From a virus: 20,763 bases of DNA. Of the stretch, positions 874 through 17,107 are shown one piece after another. The translations under genes were made by a program, and so were the position numbers. The first letter of the stretch is position 1, and every line of letters starts with the position of its first letter. The notes beneath the pieces were generated by a model that ran no database searches, was not told the origin of the DNA, and saw only the letters and a list, made by a program, of their open reading frames with translations. The stretch spans positions 1 through 20,763 of the IMG/VR virus record IMGVR_UViG_3300049216_000413. One strand, 5' to 3'.

Positions 874-3195
874 CTAGACAAGCGGGAACATCGCGGGCGT
901 GATGATCGCAGCCGAGACCGCGGCGTTGTGCCCGGTTGGATTCGGATGCACGCCATCCGCGGTCCAGGCACCGCCATTGCTCCGCCACTTTCCGGGGTTG
1001 GCCGGGTCCTCGACGATCTGCGCCAGGTCGACGACGCCGGCGAAGCCGTAGCCCGCGTAGTTCGCCCGCATATCGGCGTTGTAGATCTGCCGCTGCATTT
1101 CGCCGTACGACGCGACGAGCGACTGGCCGGCATTGATCTGCGCCGGCAGCGGCGTCGACAGCGTGACACTGGCATTGGCGACGAACGAGGCCACCGTGAC
1201 CGATCCGACGATGCCGGGGCCGGAGACGGGGATTCCCACCTGCACGCCGGTCGTGCTGGCCGTCTGCAACGTGCTGCTGCCGGCCGGCGCTGCGGCAGAG
1301 AGTGTGATCAGGCTGCCGCCGGCGAAGGCCTGTCCCGACACGCTGGTCCAGCCATCGGTGCTGGTCGTGTAGGGCGGCGAGGTGAAGGCCCAGACGCGCA
1401 GACCCGCGCCAAGGAACGGGGCGGCCAGTGCAATCAGGTCCTGACGCAACGACACCGCCGGTCGGAACAGCGAGAACAGGTCGTTGCGGCACCACCCCAG
1501 CAGCACGTCGGTGATCCCGGTCTCGACGGCGAGCGCATAGGCCCCTCGATTGCCGGCCTGCACTGCCTGGTTCGCCGTGGTGCTGCCGCGCGCCAGCGAC
1601 AGCCATGGCAGGTTGTTCGCCAGGCCGCGCTGGATATAGCCCATCCTGCCGCTCGCATCGGCCGCGTCCCCGGTACCGATCGCGATGGAATCGCCAAGGA
1701 TCAGCACGGCCGCGGCGTTCACCGTGCAGAGGCCCAGCAATCCGACCGGACACCAGAAGCCGCCGCCGGAATTGGCCGGGACGGAGGCATTCAGCGTCTG
1801 GTCGGTCAAGCCCACACCGCGCTGGCTCGCCTCCCCCGCCAGTCGCGTGCTGCCGGAGGCCGGCGTCGGATAATCGGCGATCTGCAGGCCCGAGCCGGAG
1901 AACTGCGCGAAGCCCCGGACGAAGAATTGTTGTCCCGCGGCCAGCGGACAGTCGATCTTGTCGGAGATCAGCACGTCATGCATCGGCTGCAGCGTCATCG
2001 TCCGGTTGCCGCCGAAGCGGGCCGGGTAGAAGCCGCCGGTGAAGGTGACGTTCGCTCCGGCGGCGATCGTGACGACGGTGTTCAGCGTGACCGTCTGCGC
2101 CGTCGGCTGGTTCGTCGCGGAGTAGGTGACGACGTTGGACACGACGAACGTGTTCGCCGGGATGCCGGTCCCGGTGACGGTCTGGCCGACCTGGACGCCG
2201 TTCGTCGTCACCGCGGTACCTGGCGCGAAGGTAAGGGTCGAAGCGCTGCTCGTCGCCGCGGTCGTGGCCATCGTGAAGGACGGCAGCGGCAGATAGAGCG
2301 AGGCCGTGCCTGCCGTCACGGAGACCTGGCGGTCGATCTCGCCGAGCGAGGTCACATCGAACCCGGCATAGACCAGCTTGACCGCATTGACGGCGGAGAA
2401 GGCGGGCGCCTGCCAGGACGTCTGGTCGATCACCGACGTGCTGGCGGCGTCGAAGGCCCCCCCGGATCCCGGCGCGCCGCGCCCGCGGAACCCGATCGGC
2501 AGCCAGATCTGCCGCCCGCCCTGCGCACGCAGCGAGCGTGTCGGTCCGGCGGGCCCGGTCGCACCCTGCGGGCCTGCCACGCCCTGTGGCCCGGTCGAAC
2601 CTTGCGGACCGGCTGGTCCCTGCGGCCCTGCCGCGCCGGCACTTCCTGGCGCGCCCGCCGGCCCCTGGGTCCCTGGCGTGCCCTGTGGGCCGGCCGGTCC
2701 CTGCGGACCGGCGACGCCCTGTGCACCCGCGGGACCGGCGCTTCCCGGCGCGCCCGCCGGCCCTGGGGAGCCGGCCGGCCCTTGCGGCCCGACCGGCCCG
2801 GCGGGGCCCTGGAGATTGCCCGTCCGGCTCCACACACCGCCGGCCCGGGCGAACACGTCGCCGGTCGAGGTGTCGATGTAGGTGTCACCGTCCGCACCCA
2901 CCGAGGAGCCGGGCGCGACCGTGCCGGACAGCACGGAGGCACCCGAACCACCGACCAACCCGCTGACCGAAAGCACCCCGCCGGACAGCATGAGCCCCGC
3001 ACCCAGCGAGACCGTCTCCGGCAGGCCGCCAGAGGCCGAATCCCGCCCGAGCAGCGTCCCGGCCGGCAGGGTCGGCAGCGCCTGCGACAGCAGGCTGGCA
3101 ACACCGATCTGCGCGGTGACGCCATTCTGGTCGATGACGACGACATCGTTCGGCCCCGGCGCATTTGCCGCCGGCAGCTGCGAGATCTTCGGCAT
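874..3195 (-). CDS. Tail fibre with collagen-like repeats and SGNH/GDSL esterase domain
   Basis: This 773-residue fibre has several modules. Residues 1-80 form the N-terminal module shared with the next two fibre genes ([21 protein letters not shown]). Residues ~100-129 are a small [19 protein letters not shown] module. Residues 130-219 are 30 perfect Gly-X-Y triplets. Residues 220-490 are beta-rich and predicted to trimerise. From ~495 onward is an SGNH hydrolase: GDSIA at 501-505 (nucleophile Ser503), a GWCRND block at 567-572 containing the Asn, and [10 protein letters not shown] with Asp747 and His750. Such domains deacetylate surface polysaccharides, so the protein probably binds and trims host O-antigen or exopolysaccharide. 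A second beta-module is inserted within the esterase at ~623-695. The start follows GGGGA about ten bases upstream. The last residues (MFPLV) fall just before the holin-like gene, with 66 bases of apparently empty sequence between. Confidence 0.85.
2539..2808 (-). repeat. Collagen-like Gly-X-Y repeat (30 triplets)
   Basis: This stretch encodes 30 consecutive Gly-X-Y triplets, rich in GPA, GPQ, GAP and GPT units. In phage fibres such segments form trimeric collagen-like triple helices that act as a stalk. The repeats are GC-rich and internally similar, so copy number could vary by slippage or recombination. Confidence 0.9.
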
Positions 3196-3230: not shown

Positions 3231-5693
3231 TCAGGCGATGCTGACCACGCCGTTGTTGTTCCAGACCTTGCCGGTGCCGGCTCCGGGATTGGTTTTCGGC
3301 AGGTTGGTGAGGTAGAGCGCGCCGCCGGCGACCGCGCCGATCGTCAGACTGGGAGTTTCCCCATCGGAGGACTCGGTGGTGATGATGACGCCGTTTCCCG
3401 CCGTGGCATTATGCACCGCAAGATTGTTCTTCGAACCGGAGCTGTTGTACAGCGACAGCATGTTGCCGCTGGTTCCGTCGCCGCTCGCGGTGAGATACAT
3501 ATTGCCGCCCTGCGACTGGATCGTCGCGTTGACGGTGCCGTCGGTGCCCTTGAAGCGCAGGGTCGGCGGATTGCCGGTCGTTGCCGGCGTGATCTGCACG
3601 TAGTTCGCACTGCTTTTGATGTTGTCCAGGACCAGCAGCGGCTTCCCATCGGATGCCGCCTTCACGATCTGTGGCGAGCTGTAGCCGACCGACCCGGTGC
3701 TGGTCAGCCAGGAGATGTAGTTTGTTGCATTGCCGCTGCTGTCCTGCCAGGCGCTCGACAGCGCATTGGTCGAGCCGCTCGGATTGAGGCAGGTGCAGAA
3801 GTCGATGATGTTCTGGAACACGTTCACGCCGAACAGCGCAGGTGTCGCGAACTGCTCGAAGTGACAGCAGGTGAAGGCGTTACCGCTGCAGTTCAGCGAC
3901 CCGTAGGACAGCCGGACGCCGATCGCGGTTGCCACGGCGGTATTGCCGATCGCGACCACGCCGGTATGCGTCGTATCGACGCAGTCGGTGTAGTCGAACA
4001 CGACGTAGCTCGATGACGCGGTGGCCGCGGGATAGTAGCTGAAATGCGTCGCGTTGATGAAGCCCAGCTGCAGGAGCTGCGCCTTGACGCCGCCCTGATA
4101 GGTGTTGACCTCGCCCCCATCGACGTAGAAGCCGACGAGGTAGTAGGGCGAAACCGCGGTCGTGTTGAAGGTGGCGGGGTTTTGCTTGAACAGATAGTTG
4201 GCGCCGACGACGGTCGGCCGATGCAGCCGGATGCCCTCGCCGTAATCGGACTGCAGCACCATCGTGTCGCCGTAGTAGCAGGCGCACTGGTCCAGCCAGG
4301 TGTCTTCGCAGCGGCCAAGGTCGAAGGCCGCGGTGCCGGAAAGCCCCGGGATCACCGGTGCGGCGGTGAACTGCACGTCGCGAATGCGCGCCGACCAGCA
4401 CCAGCGCAGGACGAAGCCCTTGGTAAAGCTGCTGCCATAAGGTGATGCCGTCGCGGTGGACGCGCTGAGCGCTTCGAGGTTGGCAAGCGCCAGGGTCGCC
4501 TCGGCGTCGCTCGCCGTCGTGGTCGGGAAGCTCACCTGTACCGCCGCGGCCGTCGGCCCGGCCGAGCTGTAGGCGCGGCAGGAAAAGTCGCGCAGCGTGA
4601 CCTTCTTCCAGCCCTGATCGATCGAGATCGTGATTCCGGTCCCCGTGTGCTGGAAATACAGAGTCGTGACGCCCTTGCCGGCACCGCGCACCAGCAGGGG
4701 CTTGTTCGCCCAGACCAGCGGGGACATCAGCAGGTACGACCCCGGCGGGATCTCGATGACGCCGCCGGTCGCGGGCAGCGCGTTGAAGGCGGCATTGAAG
4801 GCCGGCGCACAATCGGTCGTGTTCGCCGGGTTCGCGCCGAAATCCAGCACGTTCGCCACATCGCCGGCCCGCGCGGCGAGCGTGCGCGGCGTGGTGGAGG
4901 TCGGTGTCAGCACCGTCGCGGCCGAGGCATCCATGCCGCCAAGCGCGAGGTTCAGCGCGCCGCTGCTCAACGCCAGGCCGGATCCCACCGTGACCGACTG
5001 CAGCGCCCCAGATCCGCCGCCCAGCAGCGGCGCGCTCGGGACGGTGATCGCGGGGGACGCCGGACCGGCGATATTGCCGGTGCGCGACCAGACGCCCGCA
5101 CTGCGCAGATAGACATCGCCGGTGCTGACGTTGATGTAGGTATCGCCGTCATTGCCGATGCTGGAAGTCGGCGCCCCTGTCCCCGAACGCAGGCTGGCAC
5201 CCGGCGGTCCGGCGATATTGCCGGTGCGCGTCCAGACGCCCGCGGCGTGCGCGTAGACGTCGCCGGTGGTCGTGTTGACATAGCTATCCCCATCGACCCC
5301 CAGGCTGGCGGCCGGCGCAGCGGTGCCGGATCGGACGCAGAAGCCCTGCGGACCGGTCGGCCCGGTCGCACCGGGGGCGCCGGTGGAGCCGACCGGACCC
5401 GCAACCCCCTGCGGCCCCGCAGGCCCGGTCGGACCGGCCGGCCCGACCACCCCGCTGACGGTCAGCGCCCCCGCGGAAATCGCCAGCCCAGTGCCGAGCG
5501 CCACCTGCTCCGGCGTGCCGGAGGTGGATGAAATCCGTCCCACCAGGGTGCCCGGCGCCAGCGTCATCGTCGCCTGCGTTCCGGACAGCAGCGTGCTGAG
5601 CGGGACCTGCGCGGTGGTGCCGCTCTGCTCGATCGGCAGCACATCGGTCGCTGACACCGTCGTCGCCACGGGCAATTGCTGAATTGTCGGCAT
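3231..5693 (-). CDS. Tailspike with collagen stalk and pectate-lyase-like beta-helix
   Basis: This 820-residue protein starts with the shared fibre module (MPTIQQLPVA, VGRISSTSG, LGTGL; residues 1-80). A short Gly-X-Y stalk follows at 84-116. Next come two tandem copies of a DGDxYxN-TGDVY-VW(T/S)RTGNIAGP module at ~133-164 and ~181-212. From ~278 (DVANVLDFGANPANTTDCAPAF) the sequence matches the start of the Pectate_lyase_3 right-handed beta-helix family, used by phages to bind and often cleave polysaccharide. It contains GGVIEIPPGSYLL and a long run of beta-rich rungs. The C-terminus ends in LTNLPKTNPGAGTGKVWNNNGVVSIA-like sequence, a motif common at phage fibre tips. Specific catalytic residues cannot be assigned from sequence alone. 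AAGGA lies about seven bases before the ATG. It is separated from the next fibre gene by 35 bases. Confidence 0.85.
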   Translation of the reverse strand: MPTIQQLPVATTVSATDVLPIEQSGTTAQVPLSTLLSGTQATMTLAPGTLVGRISSTSGTPEQVALGTGLAISAGALTVSGVVGPAGPTGPAGPQGVAGPVGSTGAPGATGPTGPQGFCVRSGTAAPAASLGVDGDSYVNTTTGDVYAHAAGVWTRTGNIAGPPGASLRSGTGAPTSSIGNDGDTYINVSTGDVYLRSAGVWSRTGNIAGPASPAITVPSAPLLGGGSGALQSVTVGSGLALSSGALNLALGGMDASAATVLTPTSTTPRTLAARAGDVANVLDFGANPANTTDCAPAFNAAFNALPATGGVIEIPPGSYLLMSPLVWANKPLLVRGAGKGVTTLYFQHTGTGITISIDQGWKKVTLRDFSCRAYSSAGPTAAAVQVSFPTTTASDAEATLALANLEALSASTATASPYGSSFTKGFVLRWCWSARIRDVQFTAAPVIPGLSGTAAFDLGRCEDTWLDQCACYYGDTMVLQSDYGEGIRLHRPTVVGANYLFKQNPATFNTTAVSPYYLVGFYVDGGEVNTYQGGVKAQLLQLGFINATHFSYYPAATASSSYVVFDYTDCVDTTHTGVVAIGNTAVATAIGVRLSYGSLNCSGNAFTCCHFEQFATPALFGVNVFQNIIDFCTCLNPSGSTNALSSAWQDSSGNATNYISWLTSTGSVGYSSPQIVKAASDGKPLLVLDNIKSSANYVQITPATTGNPPTLRFKGTDGTVNATIQSQGGNMYLTASGDGTSGNMLSLYNSSGSKNNLAVHNATAGNGVIITTESSDGETPSLTIGAVAGGALYLTNLPKTNPGAGTGKVWNNNGVVSIA
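5061..5243 (-). repeat. 39-bp near-identical direct repeat within a duplicated fibre module
   Basis: The bases at 5061-5099 and 5205-5243 are the same 39-base sequence with two substitutions (core CCGGCGATATTGCCGGTGCG). They encode the VW-RTGNIAGP end of two tandem protein modules about 144 bases apart. This looks like an internal in-frame duplication of one 48-residue unit in the fibre neck. Confidence 0.85.
5346..5444 (-). repeat. Short collagen-like Gly-X-Y repeat (11 triplets)
   Basis: Eleven Gly-X-Y triplets lie between the shared N-terminal module and the duplicated DGD module of the second fibre. It is a shorter version of the 30-triplet stalk in the neighbouring fibre gene. Confidence 0.85.
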
Positions 5694-5741: not shown

Positions 5742-8291
5742 TCAGGCGATCGCGTACCAGCCCGACGCGTCCTGGCCCGACTGCTTGATCCACAGCGTCG
5801 AACCGGCGCCACCATCGAGATTGCGATAATCGGAACCCGGCGGCGCGACGACGACGCCGACCGGTGATCCGTGGCCGATGCAGGCGATATAGCCCCAGGG
5901 GTCGGCGTCCCGGCCGATCCGGACACGGCCGCTGCCGGCCGGCCGCAATGTCAGGTCACCGTTCGCGGCGGTGCGCATCACCAGGCCGCCATCTCCGGTC
6001 GGGGCGAGGTAGTCCGAGCCCGGAAATTGCACCGCGCGCCAACCGCCCCAGGTGCCGACCCATTCGACGGTGGCCTCTGCCGGGATGGTCAGATCGAACA
6101 GCGTCCAGTTGTCCTGGAACGGGACCGAGCCGACGCGGCTGAAATGGACGACGCAGTTGCAGGCGACACGCAGGCGCCGCTCCTCTAGGACCGGCAGGCC
6201 GACCTGCGCCGTGGCCGCGGCACCGGTGCCATCGCCGGTGATCACCACGCTCGCCGTGCCGCCCGCCGCATACCCCACGCCCGGGCTGGTCAGGGCAATC
6301 CCGATGACCGCGCCGGCCGAGACATAGGCGATCGCCGTTGCACCGCTGCCGGACCCGCTGATCGCGACACTGGCATGCGTATAGCCGGAGCCGCCGGCGG
6401 TCACCTTGATGAAGCCGATCTGGTCCTGCACCGCCGCGGCATGCTGCGGCAGCATCGACTGCACCCCGGACGGTGCCGCGGTGATCATCACGTCATCGGC
6501 GATGTCCGGGAACAGCACCTGCTGCAGCGCGCCATCGGTCGATGGATTGCAGATGAAGCGCTGCTGATTGTTCCAGGAATTGCCGCTGATCACCGCGGCG
6601 TCGGTATGCGCCCAGAGCGCCTGCGATTCGACGGCACCATTGGTCCCGACGAAGCTGTTGCGGCAGACCGAGATCCCCTGCGGCGCATCGACCAGATACA
6701 CGCCGCCCTCGCTGCTGCCGCTGAGGGTGATCCAGTTGCCATCCAGGGTGATCGCCTGCGCGGCGATCCCGAAATTGTTGCCGTGCCCGTCGGTTTCGAC
6801 ATTGTACGCGGTCACCGCCCAGCCGCATTGCTGCACGAAATTGCCGCACACGCGCAGCCGCTGGCTGCCGCCGACATTCAATCCCACCGCCGAGCCGGTG
6901 ACGTGGTTGCCGCCGATATCGGTGTCGATCGAGCCGCCGGCATCGATGCCGTACTGCCCGCTCCCGGTGACCAGGTTGCCGCAGATCCGCGAGGACGCGC
7001 AGTTCGCCAGGATCCCGGCGCCGCCGTTGGCGACCGACCCGTTGTCCGACAGCAGGTTGCCCTGCACCGCGATGCCCTGGCCTGACACGGCGATGCCATA
7101 CACCGCGTTGTCATGGCATTCGTTGGACGCGATCAGCGCGCCGATCGCGTCCGGATTGGCGTTGCCCCAGACCGGCGGCTGCGCATTGGTTGCGTTGTAA
7201 TTGCCCAGCGAGATGCCGCGCTGATTGTTCCAGCAGCGATTGCCGACGATCTGCGTCAGCCGCAGCTTGGCGACCAGCGTCGGATCGGTGAAATCGACGC
7301 AGAGTCCGTAGCCGCCATTGTCATGCGCCCGGCAGTCGCTGATCTGCACGCCGTCGACGGCCTGCACCCACACTCCGTGCGCGCCATTCCGCGTCATCTC
7401 GCAATCCCGCACCACATGGCGGCTCGCCGCCGGGTCGGAGGTGAGGAAGGCGAGGCCGCATCCCAGCGTCGCGCCGGCGGTGTTGGCAAAGCAGCAATCC
7501 GCGAACTCAGCGGCACTGCATGCCGCGGTGACCAGCACGCCCCAGCCGTCCTGGGCGACCGCGGCGCTGTTGGCGTCGAAAGTGACGCCCTCGGCGACGA
7601 AGCTGGCGCCCTGGATGCTGATCCACGGCCCGGTGCCGACCTGCTTCATCCGCCGCAGCACCGTCGCCCCGGGAACACCCAGCAGCACCAGTGACGCCGC
7701 AATCGTCCACTGGCCATTGACGACATATGTCCGCGCGCCCAGCCGGACCGGCTTGCCGGATGCCGCCGCGGCGGCGAGTGCGGGGGAGTCGTCGGTGACG
7801 CCATCGCCGGCGGCGCCGAAGGCCTCCACCGGCAAGGCGTCGCCCAGGCTGTCGGCGAGCAGACGCGCCGTGGTGCCGCCACGCCCCGTCACCGTCATGA
7901 TCGAGGCATCGACGCCAGGCAGGGTCGCCAATCCGCCCATGAACTGCGCGTAGCCGATCGCGCCGTCGCTGCCGCCCTGGGAGAGTGCCACAAGATCGGT
8001 CCCCGCCGGCACGCGCCCGGCGGGCAGGCCGCCGATCGAATACGGGGTGGACGTCGCGGAGAGGGTTCCGTTGGCAAGCGTCAGATTGCCGCCCAGCGTG
8101 ATCGCCTCGGGCCCGCCGCTGCCGGCGGACACGCGGCCCAGCAGCTCGCCCGCAGCCAGCACGATTTGCGGCTGCGCGCTGGCAACCAGTTGCGCGCGGG
8201 TCGCGCGGCGGGTGACCCCTGCCTGGCTGACCAGCACTTCGTCGGTATCCGCCGCCGCGGCTGCGGCCGGAAGTTGATCGATCGTCGGCAT
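5742..8291 (-). CDS. Tailspike with parallel beta-helix domain
   Basis: This is an 849-residue protein with the shared N-terminal module (MPTIDQLPAAAAAADTDEV, LLGRVSAGSGGPE, LGGNLTL). It lacks collagen repeats. From about residue 155 (PVEAFGAAGDGVTDDSPAL) it enters a pectate-lyase-like right-handed beta-helix. This continues through many NxxxxN/GIxV-type rungs, such as GVWVQAVDGVQISDCRAHDN, to about residue 600. Two GGSGYT/GVGYA-type repeats with GSGSGATA and GDGTGAAATA follow at ~635-700. The C-terminus (LVMRTAANGDLTLRPAGSGRVRIG, then STLWIKQSGQDASGWYAIA) resembles the trimerising ends of other phage spikes. The likely role is recognition and perhaps depolymerisation of a host capsule or exopolysaccharide. 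It begins four bases after the stop of the upstream adaptor-like gene. Confidence 0.85.
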   Translation of the reverse strand: MPTIDQLPAAAAAADTDEVLVSQAGVTRRATRAQLVASAQPQIVLAAGELLGRVSAGSGGPEAITLGGNLTLANGTLSATSTPYSIGGLPAGRVPAGTDLVALSQGGSDGAIGYAQFMGGLATLPGVDASIMTVTGRGGTTARLLADSLGDALPVEAFGAAGDGVTDDSPALAAAAASGKPVRLGARTYVVNGQWTIAASLVLLGVPGATVLRRMKQVGTGPWISIQGASFVAEGVTFDANSAAVAQDGWGVLVTAACSAAEFADCCFANTAGATLGCGLAFLTSDPAASRHVVRDCEMTRNGAHGVWVQAVDGVQISDCRAHDNGGYGLCVDFTDPTLVAKLRLTQIVGNRCWNNQRGISLGNYNATNAQPPVWGNANPDAIGALIASNECHDNAVYGIAVSGQGIAVQGNLLSDNGSVANGGAGILANCASSRICGNLVTGSGQYGIDAGGSIDTDIGGNHVTGSAVGLNVGGSQRLRVCGNFVQQCGWAVTAYNVETDGHGNNFGIAAQAITLDGNWITLSGSSEGGVYLVDAPQGISVCRNSFVGTNGAVESQALWAHTDAAVISGNSWNNQQRFICNPSTDGALQQVLFPDIADDVMITAAPSGVQSMLPQHAAAVQDQIGFIKVTAGGSGYTHASVAISGSGSGATAIAYVSAGAVIGIALTSPGVGYAAGGTASVVITGDGTGAAATAQVGLPVLEERRLRVACNCVVHFSRVGSVPFQDNWTLFDLTIPAEATVEWVGTWGGWRAVQFPGSDYLAPTGDGGLVMRTAANGDLTLRPAGSGRVRIGRDADPWGYIACIGHGSPVGVVVAPPGSDYRNLDGGAGSTLWIKQSGQDASGWYAIA

Positions 8292-13991: not shown

Positions 13992-14677
13992 CAGGTCGAG
14001 GCATTCGCCAGATTGACGCGGGCGCGCCCGAGATAGGCGCTCGCCTGCGACAGGCTGGCGAGCTGGCCGGCGGCGGCGCTGACCGCCAGCGGATCGTCGC
14101 CGCCGAGCGCCGCGCCGGCCGCAGCGAGCTGCGTGCCGAGCGCCGCCTGGCTGGCTGCCAGGCTCGCCACCGCCGCGGCATTCGCCGCCGTCCCGGCCGT
14201 CGCCGCCCCGGTCACGCCGACCGCGGCGAGCGGCGCGGAGACGTCGAACGCGGTCGAGGCCGACGTCAGGTCCGCCGTCACCGAGGTCAGCAGATCGGCC
14301 GCCGCCTGCACCACCGGCGCCGCCGGATCCAGCACCACGGTGCAGACCAGCCGGTACGGCACCCACCAGGGGGCGCTGTAATCGGCGGAAAACTCGGCGA
14401 TGACCACGGTGTAGAAGAAGGCATCCCAGGTCAGCGTGACCTGCGCCCCCGCCATGCGCAGCGCGTCCAGCAGCCGCGCCCGGTCGGCGGCATCGGGTCC
14501 GGAGAACACGCCCGACCAGGCGAGGTCCGCGTCATCCGCCCCCAGCGCATCCACCACGCGTCCGCCGCCGACCAGGCGATGGATCGCCAGGCGCTGCCGG
14601 CCGCCGAAGGTGATGCGATCCGGCACTTCGAAGCCGGCAAAGGCGACCGGGCCGAGCAGCAATTGGGTGGTTGGCAT
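13991..14677 (-). CDS. gpU-like tail/baseplate protein
   Basis: This 228-residue protein lies between the tape-measure position and LysM. Residues 1-110 (LLLGPVAFAGFEVPDRITFGG, then LVGGGRVVDALGADDADLAWSGVFSG and LLDALRMAGAQVTLTWD) look like the beta-rich N-terminal region of P2 gpU, Mu gp43 or XkdP-type tail proteins. Residues ~135-228 are Ala/Ser-rich and predicted helical, without recognisable motif. Both ends are fixed by TGATG overlaps. Position suggests a link between the distal tube/tape and hub. P2-type gpU caps the head-proximal end of the tail, so the match is only to fold and order. Confidence 0.6.
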   Translation of the reverse strand: MPTTQLLLGPVAFAGFEVPDRITFGGRQRLAIHRLVGGGRVVDALGADDADLAWSGVFSGPDAADRARLLDALRMAGAQVTLTWDAFFYTVVIAEFSADYSAPWWVPYRLVCTVVLDPAAPVVQAAADLLTSVTADLTSASTAFDVSAPLAAVGVTGAATAGTAANAAAVASLAASQAALGTQLAAAGAALGGDDPLAVSAAAGQLASLSQASAYLGRARVNLANAST

Positions 14678-15777
14678 CAGAGCGCTCCCGAAATCCAGGT
14701 CGGCGAGAGGCGCGGATCGAAACCGATCGCGCCGGCGGGCGGCTGGGAGGCCTCCCGCGCGAGGCGATTGGCCAGCCAGCGGCCGACCAGTTCGCCATCG
14801 AGGAACACATCGCCGCCTTGCGGCCCCTCCCGCGGTGCCGCGGGCGGCGGGCTCGCCGGCCGATCGGCCGGAGCCGCGCCGGGCGGCGTCGGAGGCGCAT
14901 CCGGGGTCGATCTCGCCGGGGCGCCGGCCGACGGCCGTTGCCACGGCGTTCGCGGCGCCACCGGCGTCTCGGCGGCGAGATGTGCCGCATCGGCCGGCAT
15001 GGCGGGCCGCGACGGCATGGCGGACGCGGCGGCGGAGGCCGGCGTGAGCGATGGTGCGACGGAGATCTGCGGCCGCACCTGCGGGGCCGGCATGTCGGCC
15101 GGCGCCGCCGACCGCTGCCGCGGCGCGGCGGCCGCGGCCGGTTCGGTCCGGACCACCCGCGTCTCGGCCGGCAGCGTGGACACGACGACCCGATGTCGCG
15201 GCACCGGCCGTTCCTGCGGCGCCGGAGCGGCCGGGGCGGCCGCCACGGCCTGGGCCGGCGGTGCCGGCGCGGGGATGGCGGGAGCGGAAGCCGGCTGCGG
15301 TGCCGCGACCGGCGGGACCACAGGCGAGGACGCCGCATCAGGCGTGCGTGCCGGCGGCGCGGGGACCATGGCCGGCGGCGACATTCGCGGCACGGGCGCC
15401 GCGGCCGGTGGCGCGGCGGCGCCGGGCGGCTCGGGCACCGGCGGGGCCGACGCGCCTGGCATGGGTGGCATCTCGGCCGCCCGCCGCACCGCCGGCGCCG
15501 GCGCGGCCGCCGGCGCGGGTTCGCCCGCATGCAGCACCGCCGGCGCTGCCGCATCGGCCTCGGCCGGCCGCGTCGCCGCCTGTACCACCGGTTTCGGGGC
15601 CGTTCCGGGCGCCGCGGCCAGGGTGGTCCGCGCCGTCTCCGACAGTCGCAGCAGGCCGAGCCGGCTCGCCTCGATGCCGCGGTCCAGATCGCGCAGTTCG
15701 CGCTCGATCACCGCGATCCCATCCGACACGCCATCCTGCAGGGCGAGGGTGATGCCGATCGTGTAGGCGTCGTCCAT
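14677..15777 (-). CDS. Tape-measure-position protein, Ala/Pro-rich
   Basis: This 366-residue protein occupies the tape measure slot, between the tail chaperone block and the hub genes. Residues 1-50 (TIGITLALQDGVSDGIAVIERELRDLD and on) form a heptad-like helix. Residues ~51-320 are almost purely Ala, Pro, Val, Met and Arg in low-complexity order, predicting disorder or polyproline helix rather than the long coiled coil and membrane segments usual for tape measures. The last 46 residues regain complexity (GGDVFLDGELVGRWLANRLAREA, then GFDPRLSPTWISG), a block that resembles conserved C-termini of phage tail tape proteins. The start follows a strong GAGGAGAGG. If it is the tape, it is very short; long plus-strand open frames over this region are composition artefacts. 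Confidence 0.65.
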   Translation of the reverse strand: MDDAYTIGITLALQDGVSDGIAVIERELRDLDRGIEASRLGLLRLSETARTTLAAAPGTAPKPVVQAATRPAEADAAAPAVLHAGEPAPAAAPAPAVRRAAEMPPMPGASAPPVPEPPGAAAPPAAAPVPRMSPPAMVPAPPARTPDAASSPVVPPVAAPQPASAPAIPAPAPPAQAVAAAPAAPAPQERPVPRHRVVVSTLPAETRVVRTEPAAAAAPRQRSAAPADMPAPQVRPQISVAPSLTPASAAASAMPSRPAMPADAAHLAAETPVAPRTPWQRPSAGAPARSTPDAPPTPPGAAPADRPASPPPAAPREGPQGGDVFLDGELVGRWLANRLAREASQPPAGAIGFDPRLSPTWISGAL

Positions 15778-15814: not shown

Positions 15815-16183
15815 TCAGCGCCGGGTGGCCTCGCCGATCAGCCCGGCGAGCGCGGCACCGATCTGCGCCGCAAGCGCGTGGCCCTGTGCGACGGCGGCCG
15901 GCAGCAGGAATGGCCGCGGCGGCATGCGCGCGGTTCCGTTCTCCTGGAACACCGCGACATCGCTGGTGCTGCCGACCTGCGCGCCCGCGTCATCCGCCTG
16001 GTGCCCGATGCTGTCGCGCAGCGCGCCGCTGCGTGGCCAGGGCGTGTCATGCGCCGCATCGGCATCCGACAGCTCGGCGCGCACCGCAGCCGCCAGCTGC
16101 GCGCCCGCGTCGTCCAGCGCGGCATGCAGCGCCGGCCGGATCGGCAGGGCGCGCAGCCGATCGGCAAGCTCGGCCGGTGTCAT
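15815..16183 (-). CDS. HK97-gp10-like tail/neck protein
   Basis: This 122-residue protein resembles the HK97 gp10/phage virion morphogenesis group, which act as head-tail joining or tail completion factors. The key block is PWPRSGALRDSIGHQ, followed by GAQVGSTSDVAVFQENGTARMPPRPFLLPA, with the characteristic [YF]-x-x-x-x-x-GT-x-x-M/x-PRPF motif. The N-terminal LADRLRALPIRPALHAALDD is helical. The ATG overlaps the end of the tail chaperone extension (ATGA), so the two are translationally coupled. Its place between the chaperone and tape-measure genes is unusual, since such proteins are normally encoded upstream of the sheath. Confidence 0.78.
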   Translation of the reverse strand: MTPAELADRLRALPIRPALHAALDDAGAQLAAAVRAELSDADAAHDTPWPRSGALRDSIGHQADDAGAQVGSTSDVAVFQENGTARMPPRPFLLPAAVAQGHALAAQIGAALAGLIGEATRR

Positions 16184-16679
16184 GTCCAGCTCCGTGTCGA
16201 CCAGTCGTAGCTGCCGCGGCCGTCATGCACGCCCATCACCACGACCCAGGCATGCCGCTCCTCGTCATCCAGCGAGAAGGCGACGTCGAACGGCACCCCG
16301 TGCCTGACCAGATAGAGACAGTCGATCAGCGCGGGGTGCCGGCTCAGTTTCCCGCCTGGCCCTCGCTCGCCGGTTCCGGCCGCAGCGCCGCGGCGACGGC
16401 GGCACAGCCGGCATCGCCCAGGCGGGCGATCAGGGCCTCCAGCTGCGCCTCATTGGCCGGCTGCGGCTGCGGCACGCCGTCGATCTCGGTGACGCAGAAG
16501 GCCAGCACCGCGAGGCCCATATAGGCGACGTTCTGCGACAGCGCCGGACCGAGCGCCTTGAACATGCGCAGCTTGTCCAGCGAGTTCGGTCGCTTCACCG
16601 TCAGCCGCCGCCCGGCGGCATCGGCCACCGCAATGCAGGCATTGGCGGCGGCGACGATCTGCTCCGCGGGCCCCTGCAT
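16180..16679 (-). CDS. Tail assembly chaperone, -1 frameshift fusion product (G-GT/E-E' type)
   Basis: The predicted fusion is 166 residues: the first 111 from the zero-frame chaperone and 55 more from the -1 frame. The extension starts LSRHPALIDCLYLVRHGVPF and ends DWSTRSWT, stopping at 16180-16182 in an ATGA overlap with the next gene. It is protein-like (FDVAFSLDDEERHAWVVV) but has no plausible start codon or ribosome-binding site of its own. The slippery GGGAAAC is at 16347-16353, directly before the zero-frame stop. This matches the lambda G/GT and P2 E/E' arrangement, where both short and long products are needed to load the tape measure and tube. Confidence 0.82.
16291..16341 (-). promoter_or_regulatory. 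Frameshift-stimulating stem-loop
   Basis: On the minus strand CGGCACCCCG (16341-16332) pairs perfectly with CGGGGTGCCG (16300-16291), a 10-bp GC-rich stem. It starts five bases after the slippery heptamer. Within the 31-base loop, CTGATC can pair with GGTCAG (six pairs, one G-U), extending the hairpin after a 2x3 internal loop. The distance and strength fit a -1 frameshift stimulator. A terminator is unlikely, because there is no U-tract and genes continue downstream. Confidence 0.78.
16344..16679 (-). CDS. Tail assembly chaperone, short form
   Basis: This 111-residue, mostly helical protein follows the tail tube gene (TGATG overlap). It contains GRRLTVKRPNSLDKLRMFKALGP, then QNVAYMGLAVLAFCVTEIDGVP and EAQLEALIARLGDAGCAAV, matching a family of small phage tail proteins in the gpG/gpE-like chaperone position. 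It ends EGQAGN. It acts in assembly and is usually absent from the mature particle. Most ribosomes should stop here; a minority should slip into the extension. Confidence 0.82.
   Translation of the reverse strand: MQGPAEQIVAAANACIAVADAAGRRLTVKRPNSLDKLRMFKALGPALSQNVAYMGLAVLAFCVTEIDGVPQPQPANEAQLEALIARLGDAGCAAVAAALRPEPASEGQAGN
16347..16353 (-). promoter_or_regulatory. Slippery heptamer GGGAAAC for -1 frameshifting
   Basis: Read on the minus strand, the zero-frame codons are GGA AAC followed directly by TGA, with G before them, so the heptamer has the canonical X XXY YYZ form. Slippage by one base places the tRNAs on GGG AAA and continues with CTG. It differs from the lambda G/GT site (GGGAAAG) by one base. 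Confidence 0.82.
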
Positions 16680-17107
16680 CAGACGCGCATGCGCCGGGCG
16701 GCGAAGAATTCCAGCTTCTGCTTGACGCTGGCATCGCCCTTCCAGGCGCCCGAGCTGGTCAGCTTGAACACCACGCTGTCGAACTGATACGTCGAGGTGC
16801 TGCCATCCGTCTCGGTGACGTACTGGTACAGCGTCCCGTACGGCAGGCTGCCCGAATTGTAGTAGGACTGCTCGGCCTGGGCGATGAAATCGTCCACCGC
16901 GCTGGTGCCGCGCTCGACGTCGAAACTGCCCTCCCAGCCCTTCGGCAGCTCCGCGCCGAGCTGCGTGCCGTCCAGCCGATCGACGCGCAGCGCCTGGGTG
17001 AGCTGCCGCGCCTCGAAGCCGGTGACGTGGCTGAGATCGACGCGCCCGAACGGCCCCATGACCACGACCTGGCAGTCGCGGCCGAGCGAGAAATTCGTTG
17101 CCGGCAT
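16679..17107 (-). CDS. Tail tube protein
   Basis: This 142-residue protein follows the sheath, in the position of P2 gpFII, and matches the phage tail tube group. It shows SLGRDCQVVVMGPFGRVDLSHVTGF, then PKGWEGSFDVERGTSAVDDFIAQAE and GTLYQYVTETDGSTSTYQFDSVVFKL, with the typical alternating beta-strands and the final KQKLEFFAARRMRV strand. It forms the inner hexameric tube through which DNA passes. A strong AAGGAG sits nine bases before the ATG and overlaps the sheath stop codon, as expected for an abundant structural product. Confidence 0.88.
   Translation of the reverse strand: MPATNFSLGRDCQVVVMGPFGRVDLSHVTGFEARQLTQALRVDRLDGTQLGAELPKGWEGSFDVERGTSAVDDFIAQAEQSYYNSGSLPYGTLYQYVTETDGSTSTYQFDSVVFKLTSSGAWKGDASVKQKLEFFAARRMRV

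Follow-up and report, generated by a model that had tools for sequence, protein, structure and literature searches.

A probable programmed −1 frameshift cassette in the tail chaperone gene of an Acetobacteraceae phage family, with two unrelated hairpins at equal spacing

Two overlapping open reading frames lie directly downstream of the tail tube gene in the virus record studied here, the second in the −1 frame relative to the first. The window, by which we mean the whole stretch of DNA analysed (20,763 nt), is a 20.8-kb virus record carrying the tail module of a contractile-tailed phage on its minus strand, with sheath, tube, chaperone, a tail completion/neck-type gene, baseplate genes and fibres. 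The gene preceding the tube gene encodes the tail sheath (phrog_23, 9e-45), and the genes around the overlap are as follows:

16679..17107 (−), tail tube protein gene, 142 aa (phrog_12993, 4e-41)
16344..16679 (−), likely tail assembly chaperone, zero-frame product (gpG-like), 111 aa (phrog_20383, 2e-23)
16180..16347 (−), −1-frame extension (putative gpT-like domain), 55 codons, LSRHPALIDCLYLV...STRSWT and a stop
15815..16183 (−), next gene, tail completion/neck type, 122 aa (phrog_5, 1e-13)

The TGA of the tube gene overlaps the chaperone ATG. The −1 frame runs from CTG at 16347 to 16183, and its stop TGA (16180–16182) overlaps the ATG of the next gene as ATGA, just as a preliminary description of the locus had it; the identical −1-nt stop/start overlap between extension and next gene is found in 96 of 172 relatives. 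The next gene also matches PF04883 (HK97-gp10-like) at 18.7 bits, below the cut-off.

Assignment of the zero-frame product draws on fold and on position. Pfam returned nothing meaningful for the chaperone or the extension, and among PHROGs the window product matches only an unnamed family, phrog_20383. When 58 relatives were compared with PHROGs, four matched phrog_508 and one phrog_344, weakly; both families are annotated ‘tail assembly chaperone’. The AlphaFold2 model of the zero-frame product (pLDDT 92) has as its first PDB match the HK97 tail assembly chaperone 2ob9 (Foldseek E 0.25), with a modest VIA-align Z of 5.2 and an rmsd of 4.8 over 95 residues at 12–16% identity. This best fold match is a −1 frameshifted chaperone from a siphophage. 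Taken with the position after the tube gene, the modelled fold makes a tail assembly chaperone the likely, though not proven, identity.

At the end of the chaperone frame, which reads GCG GGA AAC TGA, the following elements are arranged (class A denotes the window-type hairpin; a second class is described below):

16360..16364 (−), GAGGG, possible Shine–Dalgarno (SD)-like upstream stimulator, 6 nt before the heptamer
16347..16353 (−), slippery heptamer G_GGA_AAC, in X_XXY_YYZ phase
16344..16346 (−), zero-frame stop TGA, abutting the heptamer
16341..16346 (−), spacer from heptamer to conserved stem, 6 nt, equal in length in both hairpin classes
16332..16340 (−), 5′ arm of the conserved 9-bp stem (GGCACCCCG), with 98% of cells paired in 111 relatives and synonymous sites frozen
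16304..16329 (−), possible inner 6-bp stem, CTGATC (16324–16329) with GGTCAG (16304–16309)
16292..16300 (−), 3′ arm of the conserved 9-bp stem (CGGGGTGCC), GGG and GTG near-invariant in class A

The in-phase GGGAAAC and its adjacency to the zero-frame TGA, both reported in the preliminary description, are seen here. In the window itself the stem is a perfect 10 bp, CGGCACCCCG (16332–16341) pairing with CGGGGTGCCG (16291–16300) across a 31-nt loop, and it starts 5 nt past the heptamer, after TGAGC. The 74-nt region folds at −35.5 kcal/mol, with a z-score of −3.0 against dinucleotide shuffles.

This arrangement very probably serves programmed −1 frameshifting of the tail chaperone of the lambda G/GT type, with a 166-aa fusion as the second product. 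Most ribosomes would read G-GGA-AAC and stop at the adjoining TGA, releasing the 111-aa chaperone. Ribosomes paused on GGA (P site) and AAC (A site) would meet the GC-rich hairpin 6 nt downstream, and in a minority, helped by this pausing, both tRNAs would slip simultaneously and re-pair on GGG and AAA. Translation would then continue in the −1 frame at CUG to give a chaperone–T fusion of 111 + 55 = 166 aa, the length predicted earlier. By analogy with lambda gpG and gpGT, the tape measure would be coated by an excess of short chaperones and a few long ones, and tube subunits would be brought to this coat by the T-like domain. We infer that frameshifting happens, its rate and its role in tail assembly; a few percent would be the expected rate. 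Measured frameshifting in the chaperone genes of an HK97-like phage cluster is 6–7% (PMC3711429). The G/GT scheme is widespread in tailed phages (reviewed in PMC5009743, citing Xu, Hendrix and Duda 2004, 2013). Frameshifting in tail chaperone genes is textbook knowledge, and the cassette family described here is a newly recognised case of it.

A direct tblastn search of phage records with the chaperone and the extension gave no match, and as a direct query the chaperone found almost no relatives. Relatives were therefore gathered through the tube and sheath genes: both proteins served as queries against viral contigs, an alignment of the tube served for bacterial genomes, and phage records were included as well; a collection anchored in this way involves no selection for the site under test. 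It holds 236 relatives with a readable chaperone gene, from viruses and proviruses of acid-loving bacteria. In 235 of the 236, an in-phase slippery heptamer is followed by the same −1-frame domain, which supports the frameshift interpretation that had been put forward on the precedents of lambda G/GT and P2 E/E′. Scoring was automatic in 229 and by eye in 6 whose site was hidden by a contig end or by ORF choice; the seemingly heptamer-less L023, L026, L249, L074, L118 and L088 are such artefacts and carry GGGAAAC or CCCAAAC.

The 229 automatically scored relatives have GGGAAAC (201), AAAAAAC (22), GGGAAAT (4) or CCCAAAC (2). At other positions in the relatives' tube and chaperone genes, any in-phase X_XXY_YYZ occurs at 80 of 39,344 codons (0.2%) and the four types used at the site at 3 of 39,344, and a heptamer abuts the tube stop in none of 172 relatives. 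On a tree of the tube protein, which is approximate (FastTree, 142 aa) and whose members are not independent, the heptamer switched type at least 8 times without ever breaking the slippery rule, and the zero-frame stop moved at least 13 times. That stop directly follows the heptamer (offset 0) in 199 of 229 relatives and lies 3, 15 or 18 nt further on in the rest; adjacency of heptamer and stop is common, not required. Heptamer, hairpin, spacing and −1-frame domain are kept from the window to Komagataeibacter phage phiKX1, whose tube protein is 35% identical.

A −1 product might also come from slippage of RNA polymerase instead of the ribosome, for which the six As of AAAAAAC in 22 relatives could be prone. 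GGGAAAC and CCCAAAC contain no long homopolymers, however, and a downstream RNA hairpin at a fixed 6-nt spacing is a ribosomal signature; we regard a transcriptional origin as extremely improbable.

The sole true exception is L204, a prophage in a metagenome-assembled genome, which has no heptamer and an intact extension. Its site reads GCG CAT TTT CCG TCG ACC CCG ACC TGA: at L204:4767-4850, CATTTTCCGTCG replaces the heptamer and half of the stem, half of the 5′ arm is gone, and an in-phase T_TTT tetramer lies 6 nt before a residual ACCCCG/CGGGGT. Decay of the prophage may explain this, or L204 may be a weaker variant. The search of the 236 relatives for homologues that speak against frameshifting yielded this one without a heptamer and none with a conserved separate start.

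The hairpin was analysed in class A on 161 dereplicated sequences, 111 of which entered the pair count. The tenth outer pair forms in 48% of relatives and is rejected as a conserved feature; because the conserved stem is 9 bp and this outer pair is inconstant, the conserved spacer is 6 nt. The 10-bp stem five bases after the heptamer in the preliminary description is thus correct for the window, and the family keeps a stem one pair shorter. Its inner 6-bp stem is possible, with 74% of cells paired and a weak covariation that scores above shuffles, but is absent from the RNAalifold consensus. An alignment of relatives had been proposed as a way of seeing conserved heptamer and stem with compensatory changes: heptamer and stem are conserved, and compensatory changes occur in class B (below) but are nearly absent from the class A core, because that core hardly varies. 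For the same reason, the class A argument is one of synonymous constraint, not covariation.

Codon homozygosity along the extension is close to the codon-usage background almost everywhere. At the arm codons for His (CAC), Gly (GGG) and Val (GTG) it reaches 0.96–1.0, with 0.34–0.50 expected, and at the arm Pro (CCC) 0.75 against 0.36, while at Pro21, whose third base is the would-be tenth pair, it is at background. Codon choice is also above background at the heptamer, at the codons across the zero-frame stop and, more weakly than in the arms, at loop codons 9–10 and 15–17, which leaves room for an inner stem. From about codon 21 on, synonymous variability is at background, which gives no support to a pseudoknot with sequence downstream of the stem. 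The 52 nt after the spacer have a mean folding energy of −28.4 kcal/mol, against −16.3 kcal/mol in control windows.

A second class of 15 loci (class B) has an insert of about 10–14 codons just past the heptamer, and this insert holds a different hairpin. Its stems are of the GCGCGGCCGGG/CCCGGCCGCGC type with compensatory changes (in L106, for example, GCGCGGCCGGGT-TAGGCG-ACCCGGCCGCGC), and the 11-bp helix has 95.8% of cells paired in 13 sequences, among which GC pairs are exchanged for CG or AU; L102, which folds less clearly, was omitted from this count. The class B hairpin begins 6 nt past the heptamer, as in class A, and stimulatory structures generally begin 5–8 nt past the motif (PMC4066793). 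At the Gly-Val codons of the old 3′ arm, class A has GGG in 159/161 and GTG in 161/161, whereas class B has them in 6/11 and 6/11 (Fisher p 7e-12, nominal since the sequences share descent), the substitutes being GGA, GGC, GGT, GTT and Ile codons. Because the relocated hairpin released these codons, their freeze in class A served RNA pairing, and class B is strong comparative evidence for an RNA signal rather than a protein constraint.

A strong, conserved hairpin within an operon might be another kind of RNA element, such as a terminator, a processing site or a translational operator, with the heptamer incidental. No T-run follows the stem, though, and Rfam gives nothing meaningful, only one chance-level snoRNA match. 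The 6-nt distance between heptamer and hairpin is kept even where an unrelated hairpin substitutes, and the heptamer varies within the slippery rule only, which leaves such a role with next to no probability.

The −1 frame behaves as coding sequence. Its pN/pS is 0.37, against 1.23 and 1.95 in the other frames, indicating that the extension is under purifying selection, and AlphaFold2 gives a compact helical model for a 57-aa stretch of it (pLDDT 93.5), so that the extension is predicted to fold as a domain. The protein-like character ascribed earlier to the 55-codon frame is borne out by both results. A PDB fold search with the extension returned only matches with E > 7, and no fold was assigned.

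The extension could alternatively be a separate small gene, started internally (for instance at a GTG in the 3′ arm) or by ribosomes that reinitiate once they have passed the overlapping stop. Overlapping stop and start codons are common in the operon, the annotation of phiKX1 has a 59-aa gene here, and all 161 class A sequences have GTG at −1-frame codon 20; the earlier statement that the frame lacks its own start codon is correct for the stretch before the heptamer and fails at this GTG inside the 3′ arm. Against a separate gene, the start annotated in phiKX1 (ATG, −1-frame codon 9) is ATG in only 5/161 class A sequences, and in 66/172 relatives the stretch between the upstream stop and codon 19 contains no start codon at all; upstream of the heptamer, 135/172 have no ATG, GTG or TTG in the −1 frame. 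In class B, whose stem does not need it, the codon-20 GTG becomes GTT, ATT or ATC in 5/11. Conserved residues lie upstream of that codon, and internal initiation leaves the heptamer unexplained. We therefore consider a separately started gene very unlikely, and frameshifting the preferred explanation of how the extension is expressed.

Among described systems, phiKX1 (phiKX1/phiKX2, PMC8566455) is a direct relative with AAAAAACTGA, the same stem and a −1 extension. Its record has no frameshift annotation, and PMC8566455 nowhere uses the word ‘frameshift’. PhiKX1_590 (L158:4791-4970, LC644975), annotated as a separate gene, is most likely the C-terminal part of a frameshifted chaperone extension. 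A large and uncharacterised family of Acetobacteraceae phages and prophages gains a confidently predicted second chaperone product that annotation has broken up.

Upstream of the heptamer, the window's SD-like site has a duplex energy down to −7.8 kcal/mol. Across relatives the mean best duplex is −5.0 kcal/mol, against −4.3 kcal/mol in codon-shuffled controls (0/30 as low), a modest overall enrichment, and strong sites are found in a minority; a universal SD-like stimulator is unsupported. One subclade (L017, L019, L020, L033, L053, L063 and their relatives) has GGGGAG or GGGAG about 10 nt upstream of the heptamer, an SD-like distance, and this is a possible extra stimulator.

The lambda slippery sequence is GGGAAAG, whereas the A-site codon in the window family is AAC or AAU; the family also differs from lambda G/GT in its conserved hairpin 6 nt downstream and in a stop that usually abuts the heptamer, and no sequence similarity to lambda G/T was detected in library searches. 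P2-like phages have a contractile tail and a −1 chaperone extension, E/E′, between tube and tape measure, with a slippery sequence different from that of the window family. The window phage shares with them the contractile tail and the −1 extension of the chaperone gene, but no protein similarity was detected, and a tail completion-type gene lies directly downstream. For P2-like phages, PMC5009743 gives a 2–3-fold higher frameshifting efficiency. The cassettes of dnaX and IS3/IS911 likewise combine an X_XXZ_ZZN heptamer with a structure a few nt downstream and sometimes an SD-like upstream element, in genes unrelated to those of the window; their most efficient motifs end in AAG in E. coli (PMC3711429, PMC4066793).

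Two traits of the window family are unusual: its hairpin is nearly universal, and its A-site codon is always Asn (AAC in 225, AAU in 4), never AAG or AAA. In E. coli, G_GGA_AAC and A_AAA_AAC are of low efficiency, yet IS elements very likely use them; AAG motifs rank near the top there, since tRNA-Lys(UUU) re-pairs well, while tRNA-Lys(CUU) should lower AAG slippage, although it is compatible with AAG motifs in IS elements (PMC4066793). ARAGORN found tRNA-Lys(CUU) in 8 of 9 host genomes (checked via L193, L228, L160, L205, L233, L200, L169, L178 and L222); in the ninth, a fragmented assembly, the UUU gene alone was detected. In class A, the first −1-frame residue after the heptamer is always Leu, which by itself requires the heptamer to end in C or U; class B, with mostly Ser, Arg, Pro or Gln there, still ends the heptamer in C or U. 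The bearing of tRNA-Lys(CUU) on the use of AAC/AAU rather than AAG heptamers is suggestive only. A tentative and somewhat doubtful proposal is that tRNA-Lys(CUU) in the hosts, which should blunt slippage on the AAG heptamers favoured in E. coli, led the family to settle on Asn A-site heptamers with a near-universal hairpin. If this were true, the rules for bacterial frameshift motifs would vary with the tRNAs of the host, and hairpins could be swapped as modules at a fixed 6-nt spacing. With more than 230 copies of the cassette, two unrelated hairpins at equal spacing, released codons and slippery-site exchanges, the family amounts to an unusually clean natural experiment in which rules of stimulator spacing and A-site tRNA become testable outside E. 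coli.

Some further features of the tail module were observed. Pfam and PHROG searches of the window gave no recognisable tape measure gene. At the expected tape measure position lies a Pro/Ala-rich ORF of 366 aa (14677–15777, −), without a Pfam or PHROG match, which would be a short tape measure if it is one; in phiKX1, a 742-aa gene lies two genes downstream of the extension. Three consecutive tail-fibre/spike genes (877–3195, 3234–5693 and 5745–8291, all −) share an N-terminal motif (MP.I.QLP.A) and differ in their C-terminal parts, two being spike-like; one of the three has collagen-like repeats and an esterase domain (phrog_8480). Together they resemble a set of alternative fibres.
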